Source of the DNA: a virus
DNA: 20,232 nt
Reading direction: 5' to 3' (one strand)
Virus record (IMG/VR): IMGVR_UViG_3300025138_000506
Coordinates: 1 to 20,232 of that record
The notes under the pieces are model-generated. The model worked only from the letters and a program-made list of their open reading frames with translations, was not told where the DNA came from and searched no databases. Of the stretch, positions 2,546 through 19,561 are shown piece by piece. The position numbers were made by a program, and so were the translations under genes. The stretch's first letter is position 1; each line of letters starts with the position of its first letter.

Positions 2546-2835
2546 TACCTTGCCTCTAACATAAGTTTAAGTTTTTCTATCTCAATTTCTAAATCATGCA
2601 CCCTGGTTACAGTATCTTGGACGCTTTTAGGTGGTTCAAACTCATCAATCCAGTTGTCGTTCTCCTCAACTTCTTCCATTGTCAGTTCAAGATTGTGTTC
2701 AAGAAAACTAATGCGTTCTGTCAGCCCAAAATAAACCCAAACACTGACCGCTGTAAAAGCAATCATGCTTATAAGATTCCGCAATGGAATTGTTATTTCG
2801 CTTGCTTCGTTTAACTTTGTCGCTGCTTGTTTCAT
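2545..2835 (-). CDS. Single-pass membrane protein with coiled-coil tail
   Basis: This encodes 96 residues. A short N-terminus is followed by one membrane helix (about residues 18-38, IPLRNLISMIAFTAVSVWVY) and then a long acidic helical region with heptad-like Leu/Ile spacing (about 43-95), including ENDNWIDEFEPPKSVQD. I recognise this as a conserved but uncharacterised marine phage protein. The topology (an N-terminal membrane anchor followed by a periplasm-length coiled coil) and the location beside holin and endolysin make an i-spanin-like role worth considering, but no partner outer-membrane lipoprotein is visible, so this is only a suggestion. The start overlaps the upstream stop as TAATG at 2833-2837. 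Confidence 0.75.
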   Translation of the reverse strand: MKQAATKLNEASEITIPLRNLISMIAFTAVSVWVYFGLTERISFLEHNLELTMEEVEENDNWIDEFEPPKSVQDTVTRVHDLEIEIEKLKLMLEAR

Positions 2836-3251
2836 TATATATCTCTACGTCCTCTTACTGCCGCCAACGCTTTATTAAACGAGTGCAGTTCCGCTTTAGG
2901 CGCATCAAAAAGCTGGTGCGGCATGCGCTTCGACTTTTGTTGCACCTGTTGAATGGGCAAGAACAACGCTTTGCGGTGTTCCAGGCCGACACAGCATAAA
3001 ATGTCATAGTCTCTCTCATTTGGTAAAACTTTATTCTTTTGTCCACTGCCAAATTGAAAATGGTACACCGGATTTCTAGCCTCTTTGTCGCCAGATAGCT
3101 TCGCAGTCTTAACTTGTATCCTGATATATTCATTTTCTTTCCACGCTAATAAATCAACCTTGTCTTGCTGACACATAGACACTCGCCAACCTAATGATAA
3201 CACAACGGCAGCGGCGTGATACTCACCGATAAGCCCTGTTGTCGTACTCAT
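2835..3251 (-). CDS. PD-(D/E)XK family nuclease, Holliday-junction-resolvase-like
   Basis: This encodes 138 residues from ATG at 3251. The frame extends upstream to 3314, but ATG 3251 forms an ATGA overlap with the preceding stop, as elsewhere in this operon, and starts just before the conserved fold. The motif series is GLIGEY with E10, then D33 in VDLL, then the IQVK pair Q46-x-K48, matching the E ... D ... (E/Q)-x-K catalytic pattern of the PD-(D/E)XK superfamily and the layout of small archaeal-type resolvases. These enzymes cut branched or double-stranded DNA using Mg2+. The replacement of the usual acidic residue by Gln46 is tolerated in some family members. A nuclease between membrane proteins and a holin is unexpected by function. 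It may resolve DNA branches before packaging or degrade host DNA. Confidence 0.75.
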   Translation of the reverse strand: MSTTTGLIGEYHAAAVVLSLGWRVSMCQQDKVDLLAWKENEYIRIQVKTAKLSGDKEARNPVYHFQFGSGQKNKVLPNERDYDILCCVGLEHRKALFLPIQQVQQKSKRMPHQLFDAPKAELHSFNKALAAVRGRRDI

Positions 3252-3748
3252 CCAACGCCAATCGCTTTTGCTGTTTTTACCATCACCGTGATAAACAGCC
3301 CGATTACTACGCAAGCAAGCGCAAGGACAGCCAATCCAACCTTCATGTTATCAATCATTTCTTGCTGGGAAAGCGCCGCTTCTCTACGCGCCTTGGCATG
3401 GGCTTCCCTGGCCTCTCGTATTCTCTTAGCACGTTCATCTAGTATAGACTGCCATGTGCCAGCGCCAAATCTGTGGTCTGTTAAGCGCCTGACTTCAGCC
3501 ACCTGTTCGGCAGCCAACCTTGCATCTATCATTTCCTTTGCAACATTCTGAACGCCAAACTGGTCTGCTATACCCATGCCAGTTTTCTTGTTGCTTGCGG
3601 CTTGAACTTGCTGTTGACCGTTAAGCAGCGCGTCTATGTCGCCTGCAATAGCGCCAACGTCCTTGGCTGTGCCAATGGCTGACTTAATCCCGTCCACACT
3701 TGCTTTCACAAGCGCAATGCCAGCTAATGCAGTGCTAATCGGTTCCAC
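3248..3748 (-). CDS. Conserved marine-phage protein with helical body and C-terminal membrane anchor
   Basis: This encodes 166 residues if it starts at GTG 3748, which I prefer. That codon overlaps the upstream TAG as TAGTG and gives the usual (M/V)EPIxTALAG start of relatives I recognise. An ATG at 3787 would add 13 residues and overlap the upstream gene by 40 bases. The body is alpha-helical: an Ala/Ile-rich start, a GMGIADQFGV segment near residue 70, an FGAGTWQSILDERAKRI motif near 95-110, a highly charged Ala/Arg/Glu helix, and a membrane helix at about 136-158. The function is unknown. A membrane-anchored helical protein beside lysis genes might act in lysis timing or in the virion, and I cannot decide between these. 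Confidence 0.75.
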   Translation of the reverse strand: MEPISTALAGIALVKASVDGIKSAIGTAKDVGAIAGDIDALLNGQQQVQAASNKKTGMGIADQFGVQNVAKEMIDARLAAEQVAEVRRLTDHRFGAGTWQSILDERAKRIREAREAHAKARREAALSQQEMIDNMKVGLAVLALACVVIGLFITVMVKTAKAIGVG

Positions 3749-3951: not shown

Positions 3952-4120
3952 CGCCCTGTATCTTTTTTAATATTGATTGCACGGTCTTGGTCTCCCAAAT
4001 ACGGATGCAAATCCACACGCCGGTAAACAAAGCAACGACATCAGGAACCATAGCCATGTAAGCAGCGGCAGTGCCAGTGCCAGCAACTACGTCAAGGATG
4101 ACTTTGGTTTCATCGTTCAT
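3944..4120 (-). CDS. Small membrane protein, holin-like
   Basis: This encodes 58 residues from ATG 4120, which overlaps the upstream TAA as TAATG. An ATG at 4138 would add six residues inside the upstream gene and is less likely. A charged N-terminus (MNDETK) leads into a hydrophobic region spanning about residues 10-45 with a small break (AMVPD), giving one long or two short membrane helices, and then a basic C-terminal tail (WETKTVQSILKK). The pattern resembles very small membrane proteins common in marine phages that are sometimes called holins. With a clear 3TM holin downstream, this could be a second holin, an antiholin or a pinholin, but nothing in the sequence decides it. Confidence 0.65.
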   Translation of the reverse strand: MNDETKVILDVVAGTGTAAAYMAMVPDVVALFTGVWICIRIWETKTVQSILKKIQGDV

Positions 4121-4695
4121 TAGATTGTCTCCGGCCAATCGTTAATCGGCGCATTGCCAGTTGGCTTGCCATCGCTATCAACAGGCGTATCATACAACGC
4201 CATGAAAGCAGCAAGGTCAGCAGCATTGGTAATAGCTGTGCCAATACTGTTGCTGGCAGTGCGAACCGCAGCCCTATAAGTTGTAACGGTTGAAGGCACA
4301 GAATAAGAATCAACCTCTGTTGCTTTGATAACTTGCCAGTCATGAGGCGCAAGCAGTCCAGCCGCTTGTGTCTTGGCTAAGGCTATGGCGTTGGACTTCA
4401 GACCAAGTGTAACAATTTGATTGCCATCAGCATCGTTGACTGCCTTACCATCCTCATCAACTACATCAATGTCTGTGAGTGAGCGAGGGATTAACGTGCC
4501 GTCAGTCTGTCTGCCCCAATAAAACCTGTTATCAAATGCAGCTTCACTAGCTGGTGCATCTTCCCAAGAAACACCCCAACTTTTTTTATCATCATCAGAC
4601 CAAGCAGATGCCCAATTATAGGGATGCTTATAACCGTTATTATCAACCCACGCTTTGCCAGCGCGAATGATAGTATTGTTATATTTCCAAGGCAT
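4120..4695 (-). CDS. Tail-fibre-assembly-like protein
   Basis: This encodes 191 residues from ATG 4695, with a good Shine-Dalgarno six bases upstream. The N-terminal region (MPWKYNNTIIRAGKAWVDN, KHPYNW) leads into a GVSWEDAP segment, an FDNRFYWG motif near residues 54-61 and an acidic VDEDGK turn. The C-terminal part has YRAAVRTASNSI at about 140-151, a motif also seen near the end of phage fibre-assembly chaperones, followed by a short helix and a Pro-rich tail. The gene sits directly after the large adhesin-like gene, where fibre chaperones are usually found. I infer a chaperone or accessory role in folding or attaching that protein. A minor structural component is the main alternative. Confidence 0.55.
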   Translation of the reverse strand: MPWKYNNTIIRAGKAWVDNNGYKHPYNWASAWSDDDKKSWGVSWEDAPASEAAFDNRFYWGRQTDGTLIPRSLTDIDVVDEDGKAVNDADGNQIVTLGLKSNAIALAKTQAAGLLAPHDWQVIKATEVDSYSVPSTVTTYRAAVRTASNSIGTAITNAADLAAFMALYDTPVDSDGKPTGNAPINDWPETI

Positions 4696-4701
4696 TTCTA
4701 T

Positions 4702-4706
4702 CTCCT
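4702..4706 (-). promoter_or_regulatory. Shine-Dalgarno of the fibre-assembly-like gene
   Basis: Read on the minus strand this is AGGAG, six bases before the ATG at 4695. It overlaps the TAG stop of the preceding gene (4705-4707). It marks one of the few places in the late operon with a strong independent ribosome-binding site rather than a simple stop/start overlap. Confidence 0.7.
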
Positions 4707-7179
4707 ATTCTGCATTAACAAATTTGAATGGCTGGTCAGCAAAGGCGAGATAGATGTAAGTTGCACCACTGGTGTTGTAATTACCGATAGCATCTCTAGG
4801 TTTGAAACCATTTGACAAGAAGTCTACACCGTTTGTTGCGTCGGCTTCATTGCGTGATAAATCTGGAAACAGTAATGTTTTTCTTCCATTAAAAGCGTTT
4901 CGTTTATTATCAACTATCTGCCAATTTTCAGTGCCATCGTCACTGCGTTTTAGCATAATCCAAGCTGGCCTGAACCCTGTGTAGACAAACGGATTAACTG
5001 ACCCGCTTCCGATGTAGCTACCAGCCTTTGAGTAGCCTTCGGTGCTTGCGAAACAGTAAGCAATGTAACCTTGACTCGTACCAAAGCTAGCAGTATTACC
5101 AGAAACAATGCTGGAAGAAGGATGGGTGTTTTGTAGAAAAGTTGTGTTTCCTAGTGCTTTAGAAGTTGAAAAAGATATAATCTCGCCAGCCCCGAGTGAA
5201 CGATGATAAATAATCCAACTATAGCCATCATTATCCCGACCTTTGGCAATCATCATATCGGGCTGGACACCTAGGCCGTGACCAAACGTAAATGTGCCAG
5301 TACTCGGAGTTGTCAAACTTACAATACTAAACCCAGCCGTTGTGTTAGCCGATACGCTTGACGCTATGCTTGGCACACCGCTGCTAATCGAACCAGCGGC
5401 GATTGTTGATGCGCTGCCGCCAGCTTTCCAGTTCCAACTAACCATAGATTTACCACTACCATCATCATTAGTACCGTTAGTGCCAGCTTGTGTTCCTAAA
5501 GAAAAACCATCGGAGCCAAAAGAGGTTAAGCCACTTTCTGTGTATTCTTTCCCTGCGCTTTCAGGGGAAAGCCCCTTCGTAGCCCCTCTTACAACATCAT
5601 AAAAACGATGACCAGACGCATCACCTCTGGACTTCAGCCAAACCCAATCTGGAGAAAGCCCAACCCCTGAAATAGAACGTGCTGTGGCATTGCCAGTGTA
5701 AAGCAACGTATTGAAATGCTCAGTGCCATCAATGATTGCTGGTTCTGGAAGGTTGGCAGAACAAACCGCAAGATGTCCCGACGGTGGCGCATAGTAAAAT
5801 TCACCTATGCCATTGTCATCTGCCGCATTAGCAGAGCCGCTTGTTTTTGTGTTAGCAAACGAACTGTCTTGGCCGAAGTTGGCTACGATTGCAGTGGTGT
5901 TATAAATGGCACAGCCAAACACAAAAGTACCACTTAAACTAGAGGCGGCTGCAGTGCCAGAGTTTTGTACTGTATTGTTTTTATAAAATTTTACTGTGCC
6001 AGCATCTAGGTCTAATGCTATACCAAGAATATCACCCTGCCCCCAAGTATTTCCATAGGCACCTGAGGTTGATGATACATATTTAACACCATTTGAACCA
6101 TAATAACTGACTGAATTTGCCTCATTACCTATAAAATTACCGGAATCCACAGCGTTATTCGCACCAATATCTAGTATCCCCACAGCAGCTACAGAAGCAG
6201 GGCTGGCACCGACAGCTATAAAAAACTCAGCATACCATTTTCCTGAGGATACTCCCATACTTCCAAGAGTGGTCGCCCAGTAATTGCTTGCAGTGTAAGT
6301 TCTTAAATTTCCTTCGCTTATAGTTGGCGGATAAGAAGGGTTCCAATATTCATAAAGGGGATTTAGCGTAGAAAAATTATTAGTCGGGCTGTCTGGCACG
6401 ACATCGCTTGCGACTAAAGTAGGTGAGCCACCACCCGAAACAGTAAAATCATTGTTTTGACCAGACACATCATTGCCAATAGCAGAGCTGTCTGCGAAGT
6501 CGAGGTGAAACCCGTTATCTCCGTATGAACCTGAGTAGGCTTTTGGTATCCAGATGCCGTCCTTAGTCTCGCCAAAGCTGTTGGCAGTCAGGGCTTGACC
6601 GTCAATCAGATTTACTTCGGCTATGTAGCCATCGAAATAGCTATTTAATGTCGCGCTTGAGTTAGGTCTTTGTACCCCTATCAACGCACGCACAGTATTG
6701 TTTACTGAAGTATCATAATTTTGAGTTGAATAGTTAGTCGTTGAGGCGAAACTGGTAATTCGCTCACCGTTCACATAAAGTTTTGCACGGTCTGCGGCTG
6801 TTCCATCAGTCGTATCTACCGCAGCAACAATGTGATACCAAGCAGATGCATCCCTGAACAAAGCATTTGTGTCAAGAAGCATTGAATTACCACCCGACCC
6901 CGGTTGGTCAAGTAGTCTAAGGTTATTGCCAGACCGAAATTGAAGTAAAAATTGTTGAGAGGTATTAGCATCATTTCGTTGCTGAAAAATGCCTGTATCT
7001 ATACCCAAGTTCCCACGCTTTACCCAACAACTAAAAGTAAATGTCTTGCGATTGCTAGCAGAAGAGGGTGTTCGATGTAGATACGCACTGTCGTTATCAT
7101 TAAACCGCAGAGACTGGCCGATGGTGTGCGGATAAAATCCGGTGCTAGGATTAGCTAACCATTTATCAGGGCTAAACAT
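4705..7179 (-). CDS. Large adhesin-like tail protein: LamG domain, SPRY-like domain, triple beta repeat
   Basis: This encodes 824 residues. Residues of about 25-210 form a laminin-G/concanavalin-type domain, with FTFSCWVKRG at 47-56, WYHIVAAVD at 114-122, KLYVNGERI at 133-141 and FDGYIAEVNLIDG at 182-194. Residues of about 310-435 resemble a SPRY/B30.2-type sandwich (SGKWYAEFFI, GDILGIALDLDAGTVKFYKNN). Residues of about 490-820 hold three degenerate copies of a repeat centred on a PDWxWLK-like motif, similar to DUF7483 modules of phage tail proteins. Such proteins are carbohydrate-binding appendages, so host-surface recognition is the probable job. No enzymatic site is visible. Its stop precedes the fibre-assembly-like gene, and its ATG overlaps the fibre stop as TAATG at 7177-7181, linking it to the adsorption apparatus. 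Confidence 0.8.
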   Translation of the reverse strand: MFSPDKWLANPSTGFYPHTIGQSLRFNDNDSAYLHRTPSSASNRKTFTFSCWVKRGNLGIDTGIFQQRNDANTSQQFLLQFRSGNNLRLLDQPGSGGNSMLLDTNALFRDASAWYHIVAAVDTTDGTAADRAKLYVNGERITSFASTTNYSTQNYDTSVNNTVRALIGVQRPNSSATLNSYFDGYIAEVNLIDGQALTANSFGETKDGIWIPKAYSGSYGDNGFHLDFADSSAIGNDVSGQNNDFTVSGGGSPTLVASDVVPDSPTNNFSTLNPLYEYWNPSYPPTISEGNLRTYTASNYWATTLGSMGVSSGKWYAEFFIAVGASPASVAAVGILDIGANNAVDSGNFIGNEANSVSYYGSNGVKYVSSTSGAYGNTWGQGDILGIALDLDAGTVKFYKNNTVQNSGTAAASSLSGTFVFGCAIYNTTAIVANFGQDSSFANTKTSGSANAADDNGIGEFYYAPPSGHLAVCSANLPEPAIIDGTEHFNTLLYTGNATARSISGVGLSPDWVWLKSRGDASGHRFYDVVRGATKGLSPESAGKEYTESGLTSFGSDGFSLGTQAGTNGTNDDGSGKSMVSWNWKAGGSASTIAAGSISSGVPSIASSVSANTTAGFSIVSLTTPSTGTFTFGHGLGVQPDMMIAKGRDNDGYSWIIYHRSLGAGEIISFSTSKALGNTTFLQNTHPSSSIVSGNTASFGTSQGYIAYCFASTEGYSKAGSYIGSGSVNPFVYTGFRPAWIMLKRSDDGTENWQIVDNKRNAFNGRKTLLFPDLSRNEADATNGVDFLSNGFKPRDAIGNYNTSGATYIYLAFADQPFKFVNAE
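4726..5703 (-). repeat. Three protein-level repeats in the C-terminal third of the adhesin-like gene
   Basis: Residues of about 493-595, 617-712 and 722-818 each show the order Gly-x(2-3)-PDW-like motif with a trailing Lys (LSPDWVWLK at 509-517, VQPDMMIAK at 638-646, FRPAWIMLK at 736-744), then an aromatic-rich YD/RG-like strand, then a GxFxxG turn and a closing strand with aromatic residues. The copies are diverged in sequence, so the repeat is visible only in the protein. It suggests three stacked beta modules, each possibly a binding unit. Confidence 0.6.
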
Positions 7180-8894
7180 TAGCTAAACGCCAACTGCGGT
7201 GCGCCAAGTAAAATAGCATTATCAGCTTTGATAATGTAAGGCACTACATCGTAAGCATTATTGGCAGATGATATTGTAATACTCGTGCCGCCCCCTGCAA
7301 TTTGATAATCTCCATGAAGCGTCAATGTTGCAGCGGAACCTGATGATGGCTGAATGAGTATTATAACGCCTGTCTGTCCAATCTGGCTGGCTTCAGTCGT
7401 TGGTGCATCAAGAGTGTTTGAACCAGCAGCCAGTGTAATTATAAAGTTCTGATATGTATCATAGTCAAGCACACCGGATGTTGCTGATAATGCCGCTGTG
7501 TACACGCTTGGCAGTTGAGCCTTTGTAAATGTGTTCTGGGCGTTTGTGCTTACAAGAGTACCATCTCCACCAGCCGGTAAAGTCAGTGTATTAGTCACAC
7601 CAGCAGCATGAGGCTGCGGCTGTATAGTCTGTGCGTGTTGATTGCTGGACTCACAGTACAATTTAATTTGTGAACGACTGCCAGTGCCTGTTCGTATATC
7701 TATTAAGCCATCTGATATGGTCACACCGCCGCTAGAACCATTGCCGTCAAGATTGACCTTGCCGGAACCGTTAGGCAACAAGTCAATATTACGATTGCTA
7801 CTAGACACAATATCTCTGGCTAAAACATCAAGGTCGCCACCTAGTTCTGGACTTGTATCGTCAACCACATTAGTCATGCTGCCGGAGCCATCTTGACCAC
7901 TATAGCTAAAATCAACACGGATGCCATCGGCGTTGCTAAACGAACCGTTGCTGGCAAGATGACCGACAGGAACCTTGGAGTATCCTGATGCGTCTGTTAC
8001 TGCGCCTGTCACTTTAAACAAAGCAAAGGTGGCTGGCGTGCCTTCTTTTTCAATATGTATAATGCCTCTTGCTGTTGTATTAGACACATCATCAAAACTT
8101 TGGACAAATGTGGCTATTGCTGCTGAATTGTCATCAACATCATCAAAGTACATTTCAGTGACGGATGCGACGGTGCCGTTGTTTAGTGCCAGCTTGCCAG
8201 CGCCAGGGTCAGCATCAGATGTGCTGTTGCTGAAAGTCATCTGAATACCAGCAGAGTTGCCTGTTGCACCTGTTGCACCTGTGGGTATTCCAAGGGCTAG
8301 TGCCAATGCGCCGCTGGCGACAGTGTATGTTGCGGAAGCCGTTGGGCTACCACCAGCCGATACAGCAGAAGCGGATGCTGTAACCGTATCAACTTTGCCC
8401 TCAGTGACCGTTAAATCGCCACTACCGTCAAAGCCAAGTATCTTGTTAGCGCGGGCTGTTGCGTCAGCGGTAAACTCAGAGGTAGCAATCACATTAGTTT
8501 GTGACACTTTTAAAGAACGTCCAAGCTGTTCTTCTAGTTCCTGTGTAATAAAGGTTAGCTTATCAAGCGCATCTTCATGGCTGTCAGCAGGGAACGGGTC
8601 ATTCGCCACATAATCTGTTAGCTGGGTACGGGCTGTATTTCTAATTAAAACAACAGTTTCACCAGATGCAGGGATATTGCCTGATGTAAACGTAACATTA
8701 CCACCACTTGCACTACCAACACCTGATACAGCATAATGCGTGGTTTTTGTCTTTACTGTTTCAGCACCAGTCGAATCAGTACGGATAATAACCGTAATAT
8801 CGTCATCATCGAATATCTTAAAATTATAAGAAAATTCGTCATTGCTGCCATCGCCGTTGGCGCTTTTCCTGGTTGTGGTGCTACTAACTGTCAT
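7179..8894 (-). CDS. Tail fibre protein with T7 gp17-like N-terminal domain
   Basis: This encodes 571 residues (T7 gp17 has 553). The N-terminal region of about 150 residues matches the phage T7 tail-fibre adaptor domain: a STTTRKSANGDGSNDEFSY start, the DDDDITVIIR strand, TTHYAVSG, and then NTARTQLTDY and the ALDKLTFITQELEEQLGRSLK helix at about 108-129. This domain anchors the trimeric fibre to the tail. A short collagen-like stretch PTGATGATG lies at 204-212, followed by Gly/Ser/Thr-rich beta modules. The C-terminus (about 480-571) is a compact hydrophobic beta region ending LLGAPQLAFS. The ATG at 8894 has a good AGGAG at 8901-8905. The fibre probably carries or cooperates with the LamG protein encoded next. 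Confidence 0.88.
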   Translation of the reverse strand: MTVSSTTTRKSANGDGSNDEFSYNFKIFDDDDITVIIRTDSTGAETVKTKTTHYAVSGVGSASGGNVTFTSGNIPASGETVVLIRNTARTQLTDYVANDPFPADSHEDALDKLTFITQELEEQLGRSLKVSQTNVIATSEFTADATARANKILGFDGSGDLTVTEGKVDTVTASASAVSAGGSPTASATYTVASGALALALGIPTGATGATGNSAGIQMTFSNSTSDADPGAGKLALNNGTVASVTEMYFDDVDDNSAAIATFVQSFDDVSNTTARGIIHIEKEGTPATFALFKVTGAVTDASGYSKVPVGHLASNGSFSNADGIRVDFSYSGQDGSGSMTNVVDDTSPELGGDLDVLARDIVSSSNRNIDLLPNGSGKVNLDGNGSSGGVTISDGLIDIRTGTGSRSQIKLYCESSNQHAQTIQPQPHAAGVTNTLTLPAGGDGTLVSTNAQNTFTKAQLPSVYTAALSATSGVLDYDTYQNFIITLAAGSNTLDAPTTEASQIGQTGVIILIQPSSGSAATLTLHGDYQIAGGGTSITISSANNAYDVVPYIIKADNAILLGAPQLAFS

Positions 8895-8948: not shown

Positions 8949-11474
8949 TTACCTGACGTACTGAGAGGGTGGAAAGTAAAACTCTTGGTCGGTGTCTTTT
9001 TTCATTCTTCTTTCCATTCTTTTAAAGTAACCAGGGTTCACAAACTCTGTTAGTTCATATGCAAACAAATAATCTACCGCTAACTTTCCATAAAACAAAT
9101 TCATAAACGGCGTGTTTCTTAGCATTAGCTGCGCGGCACTCCCAGCAGTGTCATCCCCATCTCTGAACCTAGCCCACAATTTTAATACATCACCAGCCGT
9201 GCCAAGCGTAGGGCCAGCAAATGTTTCTAACGGAGACTGCCCGTATCTGTTGAACTCACCAAATATAAAGTCACCGTATATCCCTGCGCCGCCGCCTTGC
9301 GTAAACGCCCTGATAAACGCATCTTTGCTTTTGGTAAAATCGTCAGAAAATACTTCCTGTGGCTCTTTGCCCTTTAATATGTCCTTGGTGGCTACTGAGA
9401 TGTAGCCCATAGCAGTAGTGCCAAGCATCATTTTAGCAACGCCGAGTTTACCGCCCGACTCTAGCTGCCGCCCTATTCCTTTAGTAACATAAGTGATTGG
9501 GAAACCTTTAAGCTGCATTAACATTCGCACAGCCTCGCCTGCCACTGTGCCACGCGGCAAGCCTTGGTTCATTATTGCACGTTCACGCGCACCTGGCGTT
9601 GGTATGGCTGTGTCGGCGCTGTCTGAATAATAAGCCCCTATCTTTGTGCGCAACTCATCTTTGTATTGCTGACGCATATCGTCAGTAACGTCCAGCGTTC
9701 CACGCAAGTCTCTGATAATAGGGTCTATTTTCTGGTTGTCTATACTGTCTATTATGTCAGTAGTAAGGTACTGCCGCCCGTCTGCCATTGTTAAATCTAA
9801 GTCACGAAACAAGGGCCACTCAGTTTCACCAATGTTATACAAACCCAACAAACGCTGGGTAGCCGCTGGCACTTGTGAAAAGTCTTTCTTGCTGTAGTTG
9901 GCTAGGTCTGCCGCAAGCATACGGGCAACGCCCACTTTTTGCGTGTGGTTCCACCATTGCATACCGTTTAACTTAAAAAATACTTGCTGCGCTTTTGATA
10001 TTTGCCCAGGCGCACTGTCGTTTGCGCTAAACCTAGAATGTATTTCTGCCAGTTCGTTCTCAACGCCAATGTTCAAAAGCAGTGCTAGTTCTTTTTGTTC
10101 TTCGCTATTGAATATTCTAAACGTATCTCTTAGCGCAGTGGCGTATGCGCCAAATACACCGCGTTCTGTGTTTGAGTTTATAAACGCAGCCTTTGTAGCT
10201 ATATCAGAAAATGATGATATTGTTGCCATGCCTAATTTAGACATTGCTTGAAACGCCCTAAGTCCAGACGCTATACCAGACCAAGTAACGCTTGTTCCCA
10301 ATATTGGCGCACCAGCACCAATAGCCCTGGTTGTTCCATCTAGTTCAGCAAATTGATTTCTTAAAGCCCGTTTACTAAACTTCTCAAACAGTTTTGGTTT
10401 TGCTTTTAGCGGCATTGGTGCATCTTTAACTATCCTATCAAACATGGCTTTTGGGTTTGTGCCAAATGTTTCTATTAAACCAATGTTCTGCGCATCATGG
10501 CCTAATCCAGAATACACAGCTTCCCGCAAAGGTTGGCGGCTGAATTTGTTGGCATACTGAAACGCTGACTCACCATTCTTAAAGTGTATCAACCTTTCGG
10601 CACTCATTTTCTTGGCAAGGTTAGCGTATCCTTTGTAGCCACCAAGAGGGTCTAAGCTACCATCTTGCCCATAAATACCATCCGCCTTCATATGGTTGCC
10701 AGACACTAGGTTGTCATACATAGCGCCTAAGAAATCGTCCTCTGACATATCTTCTGGCTTGTTCATGTAAGTCTTCTTGGTATCTATACGTTCCTTAACA
10801 AAGTTAATCCAATCTGTCTTGTCCTGTTCAAGCCCTTTACCGCGTAACAGTAGCGGGTCATGGTTCTGCCTTACGACATAATTAGACAATTCCCGAATAG
10901 CTGCACCAGCACGGTTTTTTCTTTTTAACATGCGGGTTTGCACTTTTTGTATAGCTTCAGCAATTTGCCTAGCCTCTTTATTTTTTGACGAACCAAGACC
11001 ATCAAACATCTCTTGGTATATCTTCCCGTCCAAATCGCCGCTTTTAAAAATGTCTAGGTTGTCGTAACGCTTTAACTCAGCTACTAACCCTTGAGCATGG
11101 TCAAGAAGAATGGCCTTTTGCTGCGCATCCACACTAAACAATCCACGCCTTGCATCGCCCACCATTATAGCTGACAAAACTCTTTGCGGGTTATCGGGGT
11201 CTGACTTTAAAGCAGTCATTACCTTGCCGTATACACGGGCATTGATTAGTGCGTTGCGCTTCTTGATAGCCGCGTTGACTTTTGCCTGTGTTGATATTTC
11301 CGTCTGGGCTTCCAAGATAAGCTTTTGTAACTCAGTTTCCCCATCAACAGCCCCACGCCCATCAATTTTTCTTTTGACAGATTTGAGTATGTCGTTGATT
11401 TCTTCTTTGGGTACTTGGATGCCACCGTCAATAGCAACCCTAAGAACCTCTGCTGCGCAAACTTGAATACTCAT
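8949..11474 (-). CDS. Ejection (internal virion) protein, C-terminal part of gp16-like protein
   Basis: This encodes 841 residues, starting at ATG 11474 with an ATGA overlap on the preceding gene. The protein is mainly helical, with charged N-terminal helices, several Ala/Gly-rich amphipathic or hydrophobic stretches in the middle (for example the RAIGAGAPILG segment) and a closing NPGYFKRMERRMKK...QEFYFPP motif that I recognise from the ends of large internal virion proteins of T7-like marine phages. Its position after the gp14-like and gp15-like genes and before the fibre is that of T7 gene 16. Together with the upstream 627-residue protein it totals 1468 residues, near the 1318 of T7 gp16, so I infer a split gp16 equivalent. 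Such proteins leave the capsid at infection and form the trans-envelope DNA channel. Confidence 0.7.
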   Translation of the reverse strand: MSIQVCAAEVLRVAIDGGIQVPKEEINDILKSVKRKIDGRGAVDGETELQKLILEAQTEISTQAKVNAAIKKRNALINARVYGKVMTALKSDPDNPQRVLSAIMVGDARRGLFSVDAQQKAILLDHAQGLVAELKRYDNLDIFKSGDLDGKIYQEMFDGLGSSKNKEARQIAEAIQKVQTRMLKRKNRAGAAIRELSNYVVRQNHDPLLLRGKGLEQDKTDWINFVKERIDTKKTYMNKPEDMSEDDFLGAMYDNLVSGNHMKADGIYGQDGSLDPLGGYKGYANLAKKMSAERLIHFKNGESAFQYANKFSRQPLREAVYSGLGHDAQNIGLIETFGTNPKAMFDRIVKDAPMPLKAKPKLFEKFSKRALRNQFAELDGTTRAIGAGAPILGTSVTWSGIASGLRAFQAMSKLGMATISSFSDIATKAAFINSNTERGVFGAYATALRDTFRIFNSEEQKELALLLNIGVENELAEIHSRFSANDSAPGQISKAQQVFFKLNGMQWWNHTQKVGVARMLAADLANYSKKDFSQVPAATQRLLGLYNIGETEWPLFRDLDLTMADGRQYLTTDIIDSIDNQKIDPIIRDLRGTLDVTDDMRQQYKDELRTKIGAYYSDSADTAIPTPGARERAIMNQGLPRGTVAGEAVRMLMQLKGFPITYVTKGIGRQLESGGKLGVAKMMLGTTAMGYISVATKDILKGKEPQEVFSDDFTKSKDAFIRAFTQGGGAGIYGDFIFGEFNRYGQSPLETFAGPTLGTAGDVLKLWARFRDGDDTAGSAAQLMLRNTPFMNLFYGKLAVDYLFAYELTEFVNPGYFKRMERRMKKDTDQEFYFPPSQYVR

Positions 11475-16414: not shown

Positions 16415-16836
16415 TACACCACCCTTGCCATGCGGTAATAGTCACTACCGTCTGGCCCAAACTTGTACATAATACCTTCATCTTCAAATCCCATCCATCT
16501 AGCAAACCTAATCGCCTCTGGGTCGCCCATGTGGATACTAGCTTGCACACGATGTAAACTCGTTGTCGCCAGTATACTATTAAACAGTGTCTTAGCATAC
16601 CTAGCTAGTGACAACTTCCATTTCGGTGCATGCCTGGACAAAACAACCCAACCTTCGCCAACACCAGCCCACATCTCATGTATGCCACCAACAGCAACAA
16701 CGTCCTTGTCGCCCATGATTGCATAGCCCACCACTTGCTGCCCGTTGTCAAAAGCAGCCCTCATGCTTTCTGGAAAGTCAAAGTCAGTCTCAATGCTGTT
16801 AATAAGACTAGAGTTAAATGGCACAATCCTAAGCAT
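16414..16836 (-). CDS. gp13-like protein with GNAT acetyltransferase fold (DUF2833 type)
   Basis: This encodes 140 residues from ATG 16836 (T7 gp13 has 138). A TTG one codon upstream is not needed. The sequence follows a GNAT-like plan: a VVGYAIMGDKDVVAVGGIHEMW strand pair in the middle, a Trp-rich segment, an LARYAKTLFNSIL helix, and the ending HRVQASIHMGDPEAIRFARWMGFEDEGIMYKFG, as in the last strands of acetyltransferases. The RxxGxG/A acetyl-CoA loop is not clear, so catalysis is doubtful. In T7 the protein in this slot is needed for assembly of the internal core and is not retained in the mature virion. It overlaps the nozzle gene stop by eight bases. Confidence 0.75.
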   Translation of the reverse strand: MLRIVPFNSSLINSIETDFDFPESMRAAFDNGQQVVGYAIMGDKDVVAVGGIHEMWAGVGEGWVVLSRHAPKWKLSLARYAKTLFNSILATTSLHRVQASIHMGDPEAIRFARWMGFEDEGIMYKFGPDGSDYYRMARVV

Positions 16837-19561
16837 CAAAAGTGTTTGACCTCCGCATGATTGCCAGCAATGTCATAGGTAAGGGCTGTGATTGCCGTAC
16901 AATAACTCGCGCATCAGTCTCGTATCCAGATGGAAAGTATATTTCTTTATCGCCCGTAAACAACGGCACAGCTTTATCCATAAACATGCTACTGTCACGG
17001 AATGGCAGCCTGTCTAGGTTATCTGTATCTGGCCCTAGTTCTGCGCCGACTGTGTTAAAGAACCGTGCTGTCACGCCATGAATACGTTTTATCTTGCCTT
17101 GCGCAATGCCATCGTCAGCGCCAGCTTCTAATCGCAATGTTTCTACTGTCGAGGTATATCCATATCCTACATGCACCTTTGATGCTGTGCGGTCTAAAGA
17201 AATTGCGCCAGCAGATACTGTTCTGTCTGGGTGGGTTGCGCCATCAGCCAGAATAGACACCACTTCACCTTCTAGGTGGTTCAGTCCTGTAATTGTGCTA
17301 GTAGCCGTGCTGTCGTAGGTAAGGCCACTATCCACAAAAAACGCATTATTTACATCATCGCCAAACTCAATAGTCTTGATAAACTCAATATGGCGTACTG
17401 TGCTGCCATCAATTACACGCTTTACAGAAACATACACTTGGTCTTCTGCCCCGCTAGGAATTGCGGTAATGCTTTCAACTATAGCACGGGCTTCATTTGT
17501 AGTCGTTAGCCTAGCTGTATCTGAACTTTTGATTGTAAGCACTCCACCGGCTGTTGGCGATGCTTCCACTATAGTAACAACAGCGGCTGCTGGGTTAGCC
17601 ACAATAAAGTCAGCATGTGCATTAATAGCAGTAAATATATTATCCGCTGTGGTGTTGTTGTTTGAGTGGGGTCTAAAGCCTAATGCTGACGATGGCGATG
17701 AAGCGCCAGCAGCTTCAGACGTAAATGTTACAGTCTCACCATTAGATTTTGTCAATACAAGCGTAGTGCCTGTAGCAATGTTAGCGTAGTCACTGACTGT
17801 AATCGTAGCATGTGCGCTAGTTCCGCCAATGTCATGGTCATGCCAGCCAACAGCAGCGTTTGCACGGTCATAGGTAAGACCAACCAGCCGCCCGTCACTA
17901 TGCACAAACCATAGTATTAACTCAGGCTCTTGCTGCCATACCATATCAGTAAGGCCACCACGAGGAATATGGTCAGCTAAAATCGTCAAGTCGATGCCCA
18001 GCAATCCATCAGTGTCCAAGTTAAATGTAATCTCTTTAACTTTTTCTTGGCCTTTTTGAACAAGAATGGTGCTGTTACCAGCGCGAACTGGTCTAATGTC
18101 AGATGTTCCAAATGTTGTTTCACGCAATACGTTCACGTTTGTAGGCGTAACTGGCTGGGAACCTGTACCACCAGATAAAGTAAACTCTGAACTTGTGGTT
18201 AGGATTTGCAAAAACCTAGCTGGCAATAGATGCCTAATTACATTTACTTTATCAGATGCAATCGTTAGGTTTACCGCGTCATCATCTAATATGCCTGGTG
18301 TGTGGTTCTCAAAGTCTGCCGATACACTGCCAAATATTGTCTGTGGCTGGCCTGTAGTGCCAGCAAAGTATAATCGTTGCTCATAGAAGCCAACAGCCCG
18401 TGGGAAACCTTGGTCTCCATCAAATGCGCCTAATGACCAGTTAGTTGTTGTGTTACTAGAACCTACAACACTAGCTGGGATAACTCCTTCATCATTTTTA
18501 AAGGTAGCCGTAACCGCTGTTGCGCTTGTAAATCCTGTTATCTTCAGATAAGCCGAACCACTATGCTGGTATTGCCACTCAAGGCTACCGTATGTTTCTG
18601 TTCCCGACAAATGCACTGGCGGTGTGCTGCCACTTGTTTCTGAACCGCTGTCTGTTTTTTTATAAACATTGTTGCCAAATCTTACTAAAGCATTTTGAGC
18701 GTAACTTGTACTTGCCTCCCACACATCGTGGGCAACCTCTATAACTTCTCGCACCCTTATAAGCCTGCCCACATCAGTAGCTGCAAACAGGTCTGCTGAT
18801 GCAGTAACTGTCACACTTCCTGTGTTTGCCGAAATGTAAATTGTAGTATCAGTAATGTTCTCATCAAGGTATGGCCCATCAACAAAATCAATGTCGGCTA
18901 TTGTAAAGCTAGTCGCTGTTGTCCTTGTCAGCTTTGCTGGCTCATGGCTTTTATGCGCTAGGTAAACAACATCAGCAGATTGCGTATGATTTAATTCAAA
19001 TACCTCTGTGGCGCTGTAAGTCGTAGTAACCTCTACAATCTTACCAGCAGTGCCGCCGCTGCTGTAAGCAGTAAAGCCAGTGCTGTTTACACCTGACAAT
19101 GCAAACGTATTTGTAGCAGTGCTGGCTACAGTAAACTCTCGGTTGTTTAGTTCAGTCATGCCAGCAACTGACTTGATAAACACCCTGTCTCCATTGGAGA
19201 AGCCATGACCGTTAGATGTCACAACTGCTGGGTTAGCTTTGGTAATTGCTGTAATTGTTTTTGTGGCCTCAGTAAGTAAGCCGCCATCCTTGTAGAAACG
19301 GATATAGTTTTCACCCATTTCCAAAACATACGCTTGCTCATCACTGAACTCAAAGTCCATCAAACGAACCTTGCCACCGTCTTTAGAACGCCCAGCAAAG
19401 AATGTGCCTGGTCTGCGCGTCACGCCGCCCGATGGATACACCAACATATTGTTTAGCGTTTGCGCAGCCTCGTTGTATTTCTGTAAATCAATACGGCCTT
19501 CTAGCTTTGGTGATATTTCACCAGCGCGAAAGTTGGTGATGATGCTGGATACACGGGCCAT
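16829..19561 (-). CDS. Tail tubular protein B / tail nozzle, gp12-like
   Basis: This encodes 910 residues (T7 gp12 has 794). The N-terminus (NFRAGEISPKLEGRIDLQKY, NMLVYPSGGVTRRPGT, FEFSDEQAYVLEMGENYIRFYKDGG at about 70-94) is the hallmark of the podovirus nozzle family. Residues of about 104-176 carry an FCCH-like beta module (NPAVVTS...HGFSNGDRVFI), and 280-335 resemble a small carbohydrate-binding WEASTSYAQNALV module. Core nozzle motifs recur at GFPRAVGFYEQRLYFAG (about 385-401) and ILWFVHSDGRLVGLTYDR (549-566). Residues of about 582-690 look like an inserted domain. The protein would form the hexameric nozzle below the gp11 ring. It starts one base after the gp11-like stop. Confidence 0.85.
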   Translation of the reverse strand: MARVSSIITNFRAGEISPKLEGRIDLQKYNEAAQTLNNMLVYPSGGVTRRPGTFFAGRSKDGGKVRLMDFEFSDEQAYVLEMGENYIRFYKDGGLLTEATKTITAITKANPAVVTSNGHGFSNGDRVFIKSVAGMTELNNREFTVASTATNTFALSGVNSTGFTAYSSGGTAGKIVEVTTTYSATEVFELNHTQSADVVYLAHKSHEPAKLTRTTATSFTIADIDFVDGPYLDENITDTTIYISANTGSVTVTASADLFAATDVGRLIRVREVIEVAHDVWEASTSYAQNALVRFGNNVYKKTDSGSETSGSTPPVHLSGTETYGSLEWQYQHSGSAYLKITGFTSATAVTATFKNDEGVIPASVVGSSNTTTNWSLGAFDGDQGFPRAVGFYEQRLYFAGTTGQPQTIFGSVSADFENHTPGILDDDAVNLTIASDKVNVIRHLLPARFLQILTTSSEFTLSGGTGSQPVTPTNVNVLRETTFGTSDIRPVRAGNSTILVQKGQEKVKEITFNLDTDGLLGIDLTILADHIPRGGLTDMVWQQEPELILWFVHSDGRLVGLTYDRANAAVGWHDHDIGGTSAHATITVSDYANIATGTTLVLTKSNGETVTFTSEAAGASSPSSALGFRPHSNNNTTADNIFTAINAHADFIVANPAAAVVTIVEASPTAGGVLTIKSSDTARLTTTNEARAIVESITAIPSGAEDQVYVSVKRVIDGSTVRHIEFIKTIEFGDDVNNAFFVDSGLTYDSTATSTITGLNHLEGEVVSILADGATHPDRTVSAGAISLDRTASKVHVGYGYTSTVETLRLEAGADDGIAQGKIKRIHGVTARFFNTVGAELGPDTDNLDRLPFRDSSMFMDKAVPLFTGDKEIYFPSGYETDARVIVRQSQPLPMTLLAIMRRSNTFDA
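17492..17818 (-). other. Probable inserted beta domain within the nozzle gene
   Basis: This corresponds to residues of about 582-690. Relatives, as I know them, run directly from a GWHxHxIGG motif to a VESIxxIP motif. Here these flank a segment of about 108 residues with the features of a small domain found scattered in phage virion proteins: TITVSDYANIATGTT, GETVTFTSEA, an NNTTADNIFTAINAH helix, and VVTIVEASPTAGG. Its size agrees with the extra length of this protein over T7 gp12. The boundaries are approximate. Confidence 0.5.

Follow-up and report, generated by a model that had tools for sequence, protein, structure and literature searches.

Several described phages encode the domains discussed here in the same order. 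Roseobacter phage CRP-811 gp32, annotated as a virion structural protein, and Methylophilales phage MEP301 gp16, annotated as a SPRY domain containing protein, share the whole domain order with the 824-aa protein of the phage analyzed below (ConA/LamG-like domain, linker, SPRY, DUF7483) and are 43% and 41% identical to it, respectively. Both have a gene of the type of our 191-aa neighbour directly downstream and fibre or tail genes near, as here. They differ in their hosts and genome backgrounds, and CRP-811 also in having a tape-measure type tail gene set. In pelagiphages HTVC011P and HTVC202P the same domains follow one another in the same order, but LamG-SPRY and DUF7483 are two adjacent genes in the former (gp36/gp37), while in the latter the domains are split over three adjacent genes (gp49/gp50/gp51). 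Pfam carries DUF7483 (PF24299) as a single domain without a known function, and the whole of it is matched here. The 824-aa protein belongs to a family that is known but uncharacterised.

Related parts are known from other phages. In the accessible part of a study of jumbo-phage tail proteins, Laminin G3 and SPRY lectin domains are tied to tail fibres, while that part mentions neither DUF7483 nor an insertion hairpin (PMC7824862). The accessible part of a report on the "metaviromic islands" of marine phages places lectin-like and carbohydrate-binding candidates for host recognition near the fibre gene; the candidates are of the C1q and lectin kinds, and no three-module domain is described in that part (PMC3909814). 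DUF7483 is not named in the literature searched. As far as these searches go, the make-up of DUF7483 from three modules and its insertion hairpin are undescribed.

The window analyzed here is a whole virus record, IMGVR_UViG_3300025138_000506, of 20,232 bases. According to the ORF list, Pfam and PHROG, a phage tail gene set occupies most of its minus strand, and the gene order suggests a T7-like podovirus of marine type. The features relevant to the discussion are as follows.

16829-19561, minus strand: large tail protein (phrog_376)
8949-11474, minus strand: internal-virion-type protein (phrog_684, weaker phrog_342)
7179-8894, minus strand: 571-aa fibre-like protein, upstream neighbour (PHROG tail / tail fiber / tail spike, residues 1-159)
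4705-7179, minus strand: 824-aa protein, ConA/LamG-like - linker - SPRY - DUF7483, putative tail-associated adhesin (ORF, Pfam, PHROG)
6535-7122, minus strand: ConA/LamG-like domain, residues 20-215 (predicted-structure match)
5845-6309, minus strand: SPRY domain, residues 291-445, structural match 268-477 (PF00622)
4729-5727, minus strand: DUF7483 domain, residues 485-817 (PF24299)
5416-5721, minus strand: module R1, residues 487-588, with PDWVWLK (hhalign, strands a-h, couplings)
5347-5427, minus strand: R1-R2 linker hairpin, residues 585-611 (couplings; insert position in relatives)
5017-5346, minus strand: module R2, residues 612-721, with PDMMIAK (hhalign, strands, couplings)
4726-5016, minus strand: module R3, residues 722-818, first strand from near 717, with PAWIMLK (hhalign, strands, couplings)
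4120-4695, minus strand: 191-aa conserved protein, downstream neighbour (conserved downstream of fused relatives)
Downstream of the 824-aa gene, same direction: lysis region with a GTA-type holin (GTA_holin_3TM) and a peptidase M15 (Pfam)

An initial annotation had described an adhesin-like protein of 824 residues next to the fibre gene, with a triple repeat at 4726-5703. Both the ORF and the position of the repeat (residues 492-818) fit. The stop TAA of the fibre-like gene overlaps the ATG of the 824-aa gene (TAATG). The PHROG labels of the 824-aa protein, which are annotations, read virion structural / tail fiber. The Pfam scan gave no match for the 571-aa protein, and NCBIfam had no family for the three proteins scanned.

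Two binding-type folds had been proposed in front of the repeat. The SPRY domain is supported both by Pfam (47.8 bits, cut-off 26.3) and by structure: in the full-length model (64-row alignment, pLDDT 86.7, pTM 0.87) this part matches Ash2L (4x8p) with Z 24.6 and rmsd 1.9 over 174 aligned residues. The "LamG" domain stands as a ConA-like fold. Residues 20-267 of the model form a ConA-like beta sandwich (4dqa, Z 19.9; 1sac, Z 18.7), with pentraxins at Z about 18-19 and PAPP-A at Z about 20. Neither Laminin_G_3 (PF13385) nor any other Laminin_G family was found in the 824-aa protein at Pfam E-values up to 0.1; hence this N-terminal domain is named ConA/LamG-like by its fold only.

DUF7483 consists of three diverged homologous beta modules. 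Pfam covers all of them with one full-length match to a single family (332.8 bits, cut-off 27, E 2.8e-99, profile positions 2-330 of 330; 336.3 bits in a six-frame search). When profiles of the modules were compared with each other by hhalign, using an alignment of 38 rows (the DUF7483 of the 824-aa protein and 37 relatives), R1 matched R2 with 98.5% (E 1.5e-15, score 83.8), R1 matched R3 with 98.6% (E 6.3e-16, score 84.1) and R2 matched R3 with 97.4% (E 9.7e-12, score 64.3), while 40 column-shuffle controls per pair gave at most 20.5. With 136 rows the scores were 92.9, 87.4 and 63.9 in the same order, against at most 21.9 in shuffles. The identity between module profiles is 16-24%. The single sequence is less eloquent: R1/R3 scores 59, above all 2000 shuffles (maximum 53), but the R1/R2 score was reached by 559 and the R2/R3 score by 113 of 2000 shuffles, so that these two pairs are not significant. 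With only one significant pair, the repeat is real yet only partly proven by one sequence.

The copies had been described as centred on PDWxWLK. That string is present in R1 only, and what all three share is its spacing, P-x5-K (P510/K516, P640/K646 and P738/K744). This is the strongest conserved shared feature; P and K are each conserved in at least 94% of the 136-row alignment. It is followed by H or W (H524 in R1, W655 in R2, W753 in R3) and, in R1 and R3, by D-x-x-R (D528/R531 and D757/R760).

Other origins and relatives of the modules were considered. Profiles of LamG and SPRY compared with R1-R3 gave at most 3%, which speaks against the modules being diverged copies of either domain. Duplication at the nucleotide level within the genome yielded just chance-like matches of 15-16 nt. 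A possible kinship with the cannulae protein CanA stayed below significance, at E 0.83 in the 38-row and E 0.047 in the 136-row alignment.

The model of DUF7483 alone (136 rows) has pLDDT 92.4 with no segment below 50. Its pTM is 0.92, a value that expresses no more than confidence in how the modules are placed relative to each other and is not by itself an argument for the stacked stalk that the initial annotation had also suggested. In this predicted model the strand order a-h recurs in R1, R2 and R3, with 22 of the 24 expected strands present by hand count. By strand order the modules thus agree in topology, which favours the three-module claim of the initial annotation. Foldseek against the PDB gave no match at E <= 1e-3 among 508 (best row TM 0.24), and among 979 PDB chains re-aligned by VIA the best Z was 6.0, with none at 8 or above. 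Cupins and the C-terminal sandwich of glycosidases, considered as the fold of the module, reached Z 4 to 6 only, a commonly seen range. The lack of a close match in the PDB does not prove that the predicted fold of DUF7483 is new. In BFVD there were 27 matches at E 1e-3 or better, the best named one being a DUF7483 protein. Four of the BFVD rows (18, 19, 34 and 49) are short entries of 110-147 aa with about 105 residues matched; perhaps these are single modules or fragments.

Residue couplings give a second view of the same topology. A mean-field analysis of 324 distinct DUF7483 sequences placed 58 of the top 80 pairs within one module, with couplings of strand a to h and of c to h in every module. 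Three pairs labelled as R2-R3 (717-813, 719-811, 720-810) join R3's own strand a to its strand h, and three truly cross modules (489-739, 485-714, 545-648). The linker between R1 and R2 is touched by the other 16. They outline a hairpin in which 585-593 pairs with 606-610 (585-610, 590-608, 592-606, 593-606), and more of them reach residue 633 of R2. We also transferred the top 30 couplings of each module to the others through anchor residues, some of which were chosen by eye. R1 shares 18 of 30 with R2 (14 in reverse) and 16 with R3 (18 in reverse); R2 shares 9 with R3 (12 in reverse). Among 576 shifted registers the maximum was 11, and only the R2-to-R3 direction was matched by shifts (21 of 576). 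Agreement of the coupling maps is thus found for R1 with R2 and for R1 with R3, and is weaker for R2 with R3. Since patterns of column variability common to the modules may contribute to the sharing, we take it as support and not as proof.

The modules travel together. In 261 of 269 distinct complete ORFs they occur only as R1-R2-R3 sets; this count leaves out identical copies but keeps near-identical relatives as separate entries, and ORFs running off the end of a locus were left out. The first sample of 124 ORFs with at least one module contained 104 with one set and 15 with two sets. Of the remainder, one ORF (L063) is nested, reading R1-R1-R2-R3-R2-R3 plus a further set, and four are pieces of one contig (L043), whose consecutive ORFs resemble frameshift fragments. 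This sample was partly seeded on the R1 motif, for which reason two more were drawn from R3 and R2 DNA patterns. These added 145 new ORFs, with a further 87 running off locus ends and left out in the same way: 135 carry one set, 4 two and 1 three, one is nested (L172) and 4 are odd. Two of the odd ORFs are the two parts of one gene that is split within R1 (L247). In another (L270) R3 is too diverged for the threshold and is visible by eye, and the last (L303) has R2-R3 but not the greater part of R1.

Spacing within the set is uneven. Between R2 and R3 lie 0-9 residues in the first sample (139 pairs) and 0-8 in the later ones (150 pairs); between R1 and R2 the corresponding ranges are 16-243 (134 pairs) and 0-278 (148 pairs). 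In 14 ORFs of the first sample the whole set is duplicated as one unit in the stretch from LamG to the SPRY linker. Where genes are split, the splits lie between domains and never within DUF7483, in the records examined and with frameshifted contigs excepted.

The variable spacing between R1 and R2 marks the place where other domains are found. The hairpin is empty in our phage, at about 23 residues. Among relatives, ORFs cut by a locus end included, there are 26 instances of inserts of 100-278 aa at this position. Seventeen of them form one family with invariant H51, C101, H104 and M107, a pattern that we take to resemble the copper site of cupredoxins. Both scanned members of this cupredoxin-like family match PHROG tail fiber and baseplate families. 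One PDB sequence search with such an insert found nothing, and a second returned four weak rows, one of them a pseudoazurin at E 0.39. Of the ten inserts scanned by Pfam, three contain Laminin_G_3 (L147, L305, L045) and two a sub-threshold CBM_4_9 (L169, L253). LamG occupies the same position in L036 and L046. Finally, in L055, L063 and L172 the order of modules is R1-(R1-R2-R3)-R2-R3; apparently a DUF7483 is inserted here into the hairpin of another DUF7483. Inner copies share about 40-43% identity with outer ones, and, as they are about equally distant, the module order is the main evidence for nesting.

Among 50,697 phage records, 71 contain relatives of the 824-aa protein, and the phages concerned infect Pelagibacter (SAR11), Roseobacter, Methylophilales and picocyanobacteria. 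At least 598 stretches of viral contigs encode a DUF7483 relative. For 107 fused relatives we computed identity to the 824-aa protein by domain, obtaining means of 45.7% for LamG, 34.6% for SPRY and 44.8% for DUF7483; many of these relatives were found by DUF7483 similarity, which biases them toward high DUF7483 identity. DUF7483 exceeds SPRY in 105 of the 107, and the trend is the same in 8 relatives from a whole-protein scan (43.4 vs 36.6). LamG exceeds DUF7483 in 67 of the 107. With LamG as conserved as DUF7483, conservation alone does not tell which part binds.

The gene neighbourhood was counted for 143 distinct relatives whose R3 is encoded by the plus strand of the locus (L001-L147 minus the window's own locus). 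Of 81 fused proteins, 62 are followed downstream by a gene of the 191-aa type, within 60 nt in 58 of these 62 (15 have none, 4 have no room for it). Such a gene is also near 26 of 62 genes encoding DUF7483 only, upstream in 19 cases and downstream in 7, while 35 have none and 1 has no room. Three of 25 members of the 191-aa family contain a weak Phage_tail_APC match at E up to 0.5 (best 0.012), and both relatives scanned weakly match PHROGs for tail fiber assembly / tail assembly chaperone (8e-5 and 0.0024). The protein of our phage itself has no Phage_tail_APC or tail-assembly PHROG match, and a PDB sequence search with it found none. It is probably a tail-fibre-assembly-like, putative helper in the assembly of the adhesin, in whose folding or attachment it would aid.

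The computations reported here establish the three homologous modules, their fixed set, the insertion site and the gene neighbourhood. What might such an arrangement be for? We infer a virion location, an adhesive function and a scaffold role, and consider it probable (about 0.65) that the 824-aa protein is a tail-associated adhesin, with LamG and SPRY binders placed on a DUF7483 scaffold. The ConA/LamG-like and SPRY domains would likely be its N-terminal ligand-binding heads. DUF7483 would be a rigid C-terminal frame whose three homologous beta modules keep a fixed order; in it R2 abuts R3 and a beta hairpin joins R1 to R2, the tip of the hairpin serving as the insertion site. In relatives this hairpin carries extra domains of lectin-like, cupredoxin-like or CBM-like type, or what seems to be another DUF7483. 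Phage lineages would in this way be able to gain or exchange binding domains and leave the scaffold intact.

Other suggestions can be made. The initial annotation raised the idea that each copy recognizes a ligand of its own, the modules being independent binding domains for several surface ligands. Their divergence, with 16-24% profile identity, and the lectin-rich surroundings in the same chain would suit this idea. We nevertheless regard it as improbable: the modules are fixed in number and in sequence across 261 of the 269 ORFs, are duplicated block-wise as a whole and vary less than SPRY, and diversity resides in the inserted domains and not in the number of modules. DUF7483 resembles a scaffold that offers an insertion site more than it resembles three independent binders. 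Another suggestion, unlikely but somewhat easier to entertain, is that DUF7483 is an anchor in the virion or an oligomerisation piece, such as a stalk or collar, that LamG and SPRY do all the binding, and that the hairpin is merely a tolerant loop. In favour of this, the domain is conserved and mostly C-terminal, and in pelagiphages such as HTVC011P (gp37) and HTVC202P (gp51) it is a separate adjacent gene. Parts that anchor proteins in the tail are, however, usually N-terminal, and the hairpin accepts lectin-like or tail-type domains from several unrelated families.

Finally, the protein may act outside the virion, as a lectin that is secreted or periplasmic and produced in the course of lysis. 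The genes for the holin and the peptidase M15, which follow downstream with the same orientation, may be quoted in favour of this. Yet the stop/start overlap with the adjoining fibre-like gene, the PHROG labels and the assembly-like 191-aa neighbour all point to the tail, and we find a lysis lectin very hard to believe in.

Returning to the adhesin with a DUF7483 scaffold, a more specific form of it can be offered, tentatively and with the odds somewhat against it. DUF7483 would be a plug-in scaffold, a single-chain pseudo-threefold beta domain of unsolved fold derived from one ancestral module, with the R1-R2 hairpin as a natural display socket for swappable binders. Into this socket marine phages would place lectins, a cupredoxin-like domain with a metal site, carbohydrate-binding modules and even another DUF7483. 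Having three modules in one chain, a monomer might cap a trimeric fibre, for example the one encoded upstream.

DUF7483 has no assigned function and is without a close solved structure, which makes it worth solving. A three-module scaffold with a defined hairpin is a testable idea of how these phages change their binding domains. If the plug-in scaffold is true, binding domains would be swapped while the DUF7483 frame stays untouched.

The three homologous beta modules of DUF7483 (R1, R2 and R3) are nearly, but not quite, always found together, and DUF7483 is not always fused to the LamG and SPRY domains that precede it in the 824-residue protein. Pelagiphage HTVC202P (locus L052) distributes LamG, SPRY and DUF7483 over three adjoining genes, gp49-gp51, and a 288-residue protein encoded on the minus strand of locus L303, the sole such relative seen, retains R2 and R3 with R1 mostly gone. 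Four viral proteins of 110-147 residues in BFVD (A0A516L4G1, A0A8S0I7N3, A0A8S0I741 and A0A8S5TWQ1) match the DUF7483 model over about one module; perhaps they are single-module relatives, or else fragments. DUF7483 is also encoded on 12 genome contigs, mostly from MAGs (L136-L147), which may be prophages or phage contamination.

Homologues of the 191-residue neighbour (4120-4695) in phages CRP-811 and CRP-406 (L048 and L053) are labelled N-acetylmuramidase/lysin. This label has no Pfam backing among the 25 family members scanned and is likely a misannotation. Elsewhere in the window, a large tail protein (16829-19561) carries an unexpected Pfam label, E1_FCCH (residues 114-172; 45.9 bits, cut-off 29.5), and a PD-(D/E)XK endonuclease-like gene (2835-3314; PF11645, 30.6 bits, cut-off 26.1) lies inside the lysis region.

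The R1-R2 hairpin is empty in the window protein. In L055, L063 and L172 the module order is R1-(R1-R2-R3)-R2-R3, and one DUF7483 apparently sits within another. In many DUF7483 proteins the hairpin houses a cupredoxin-like domain:

L041:2230-2625, cupredoxin-like insert (16 further inserts of the same family)

A histidine and a C-x2-H-x2-M motif are invariant in all 17 inserts, and both members scanned matched PHROG baseplate and tail-fibre families. Possibly, the insert provides a metal site within a phage adhesin.
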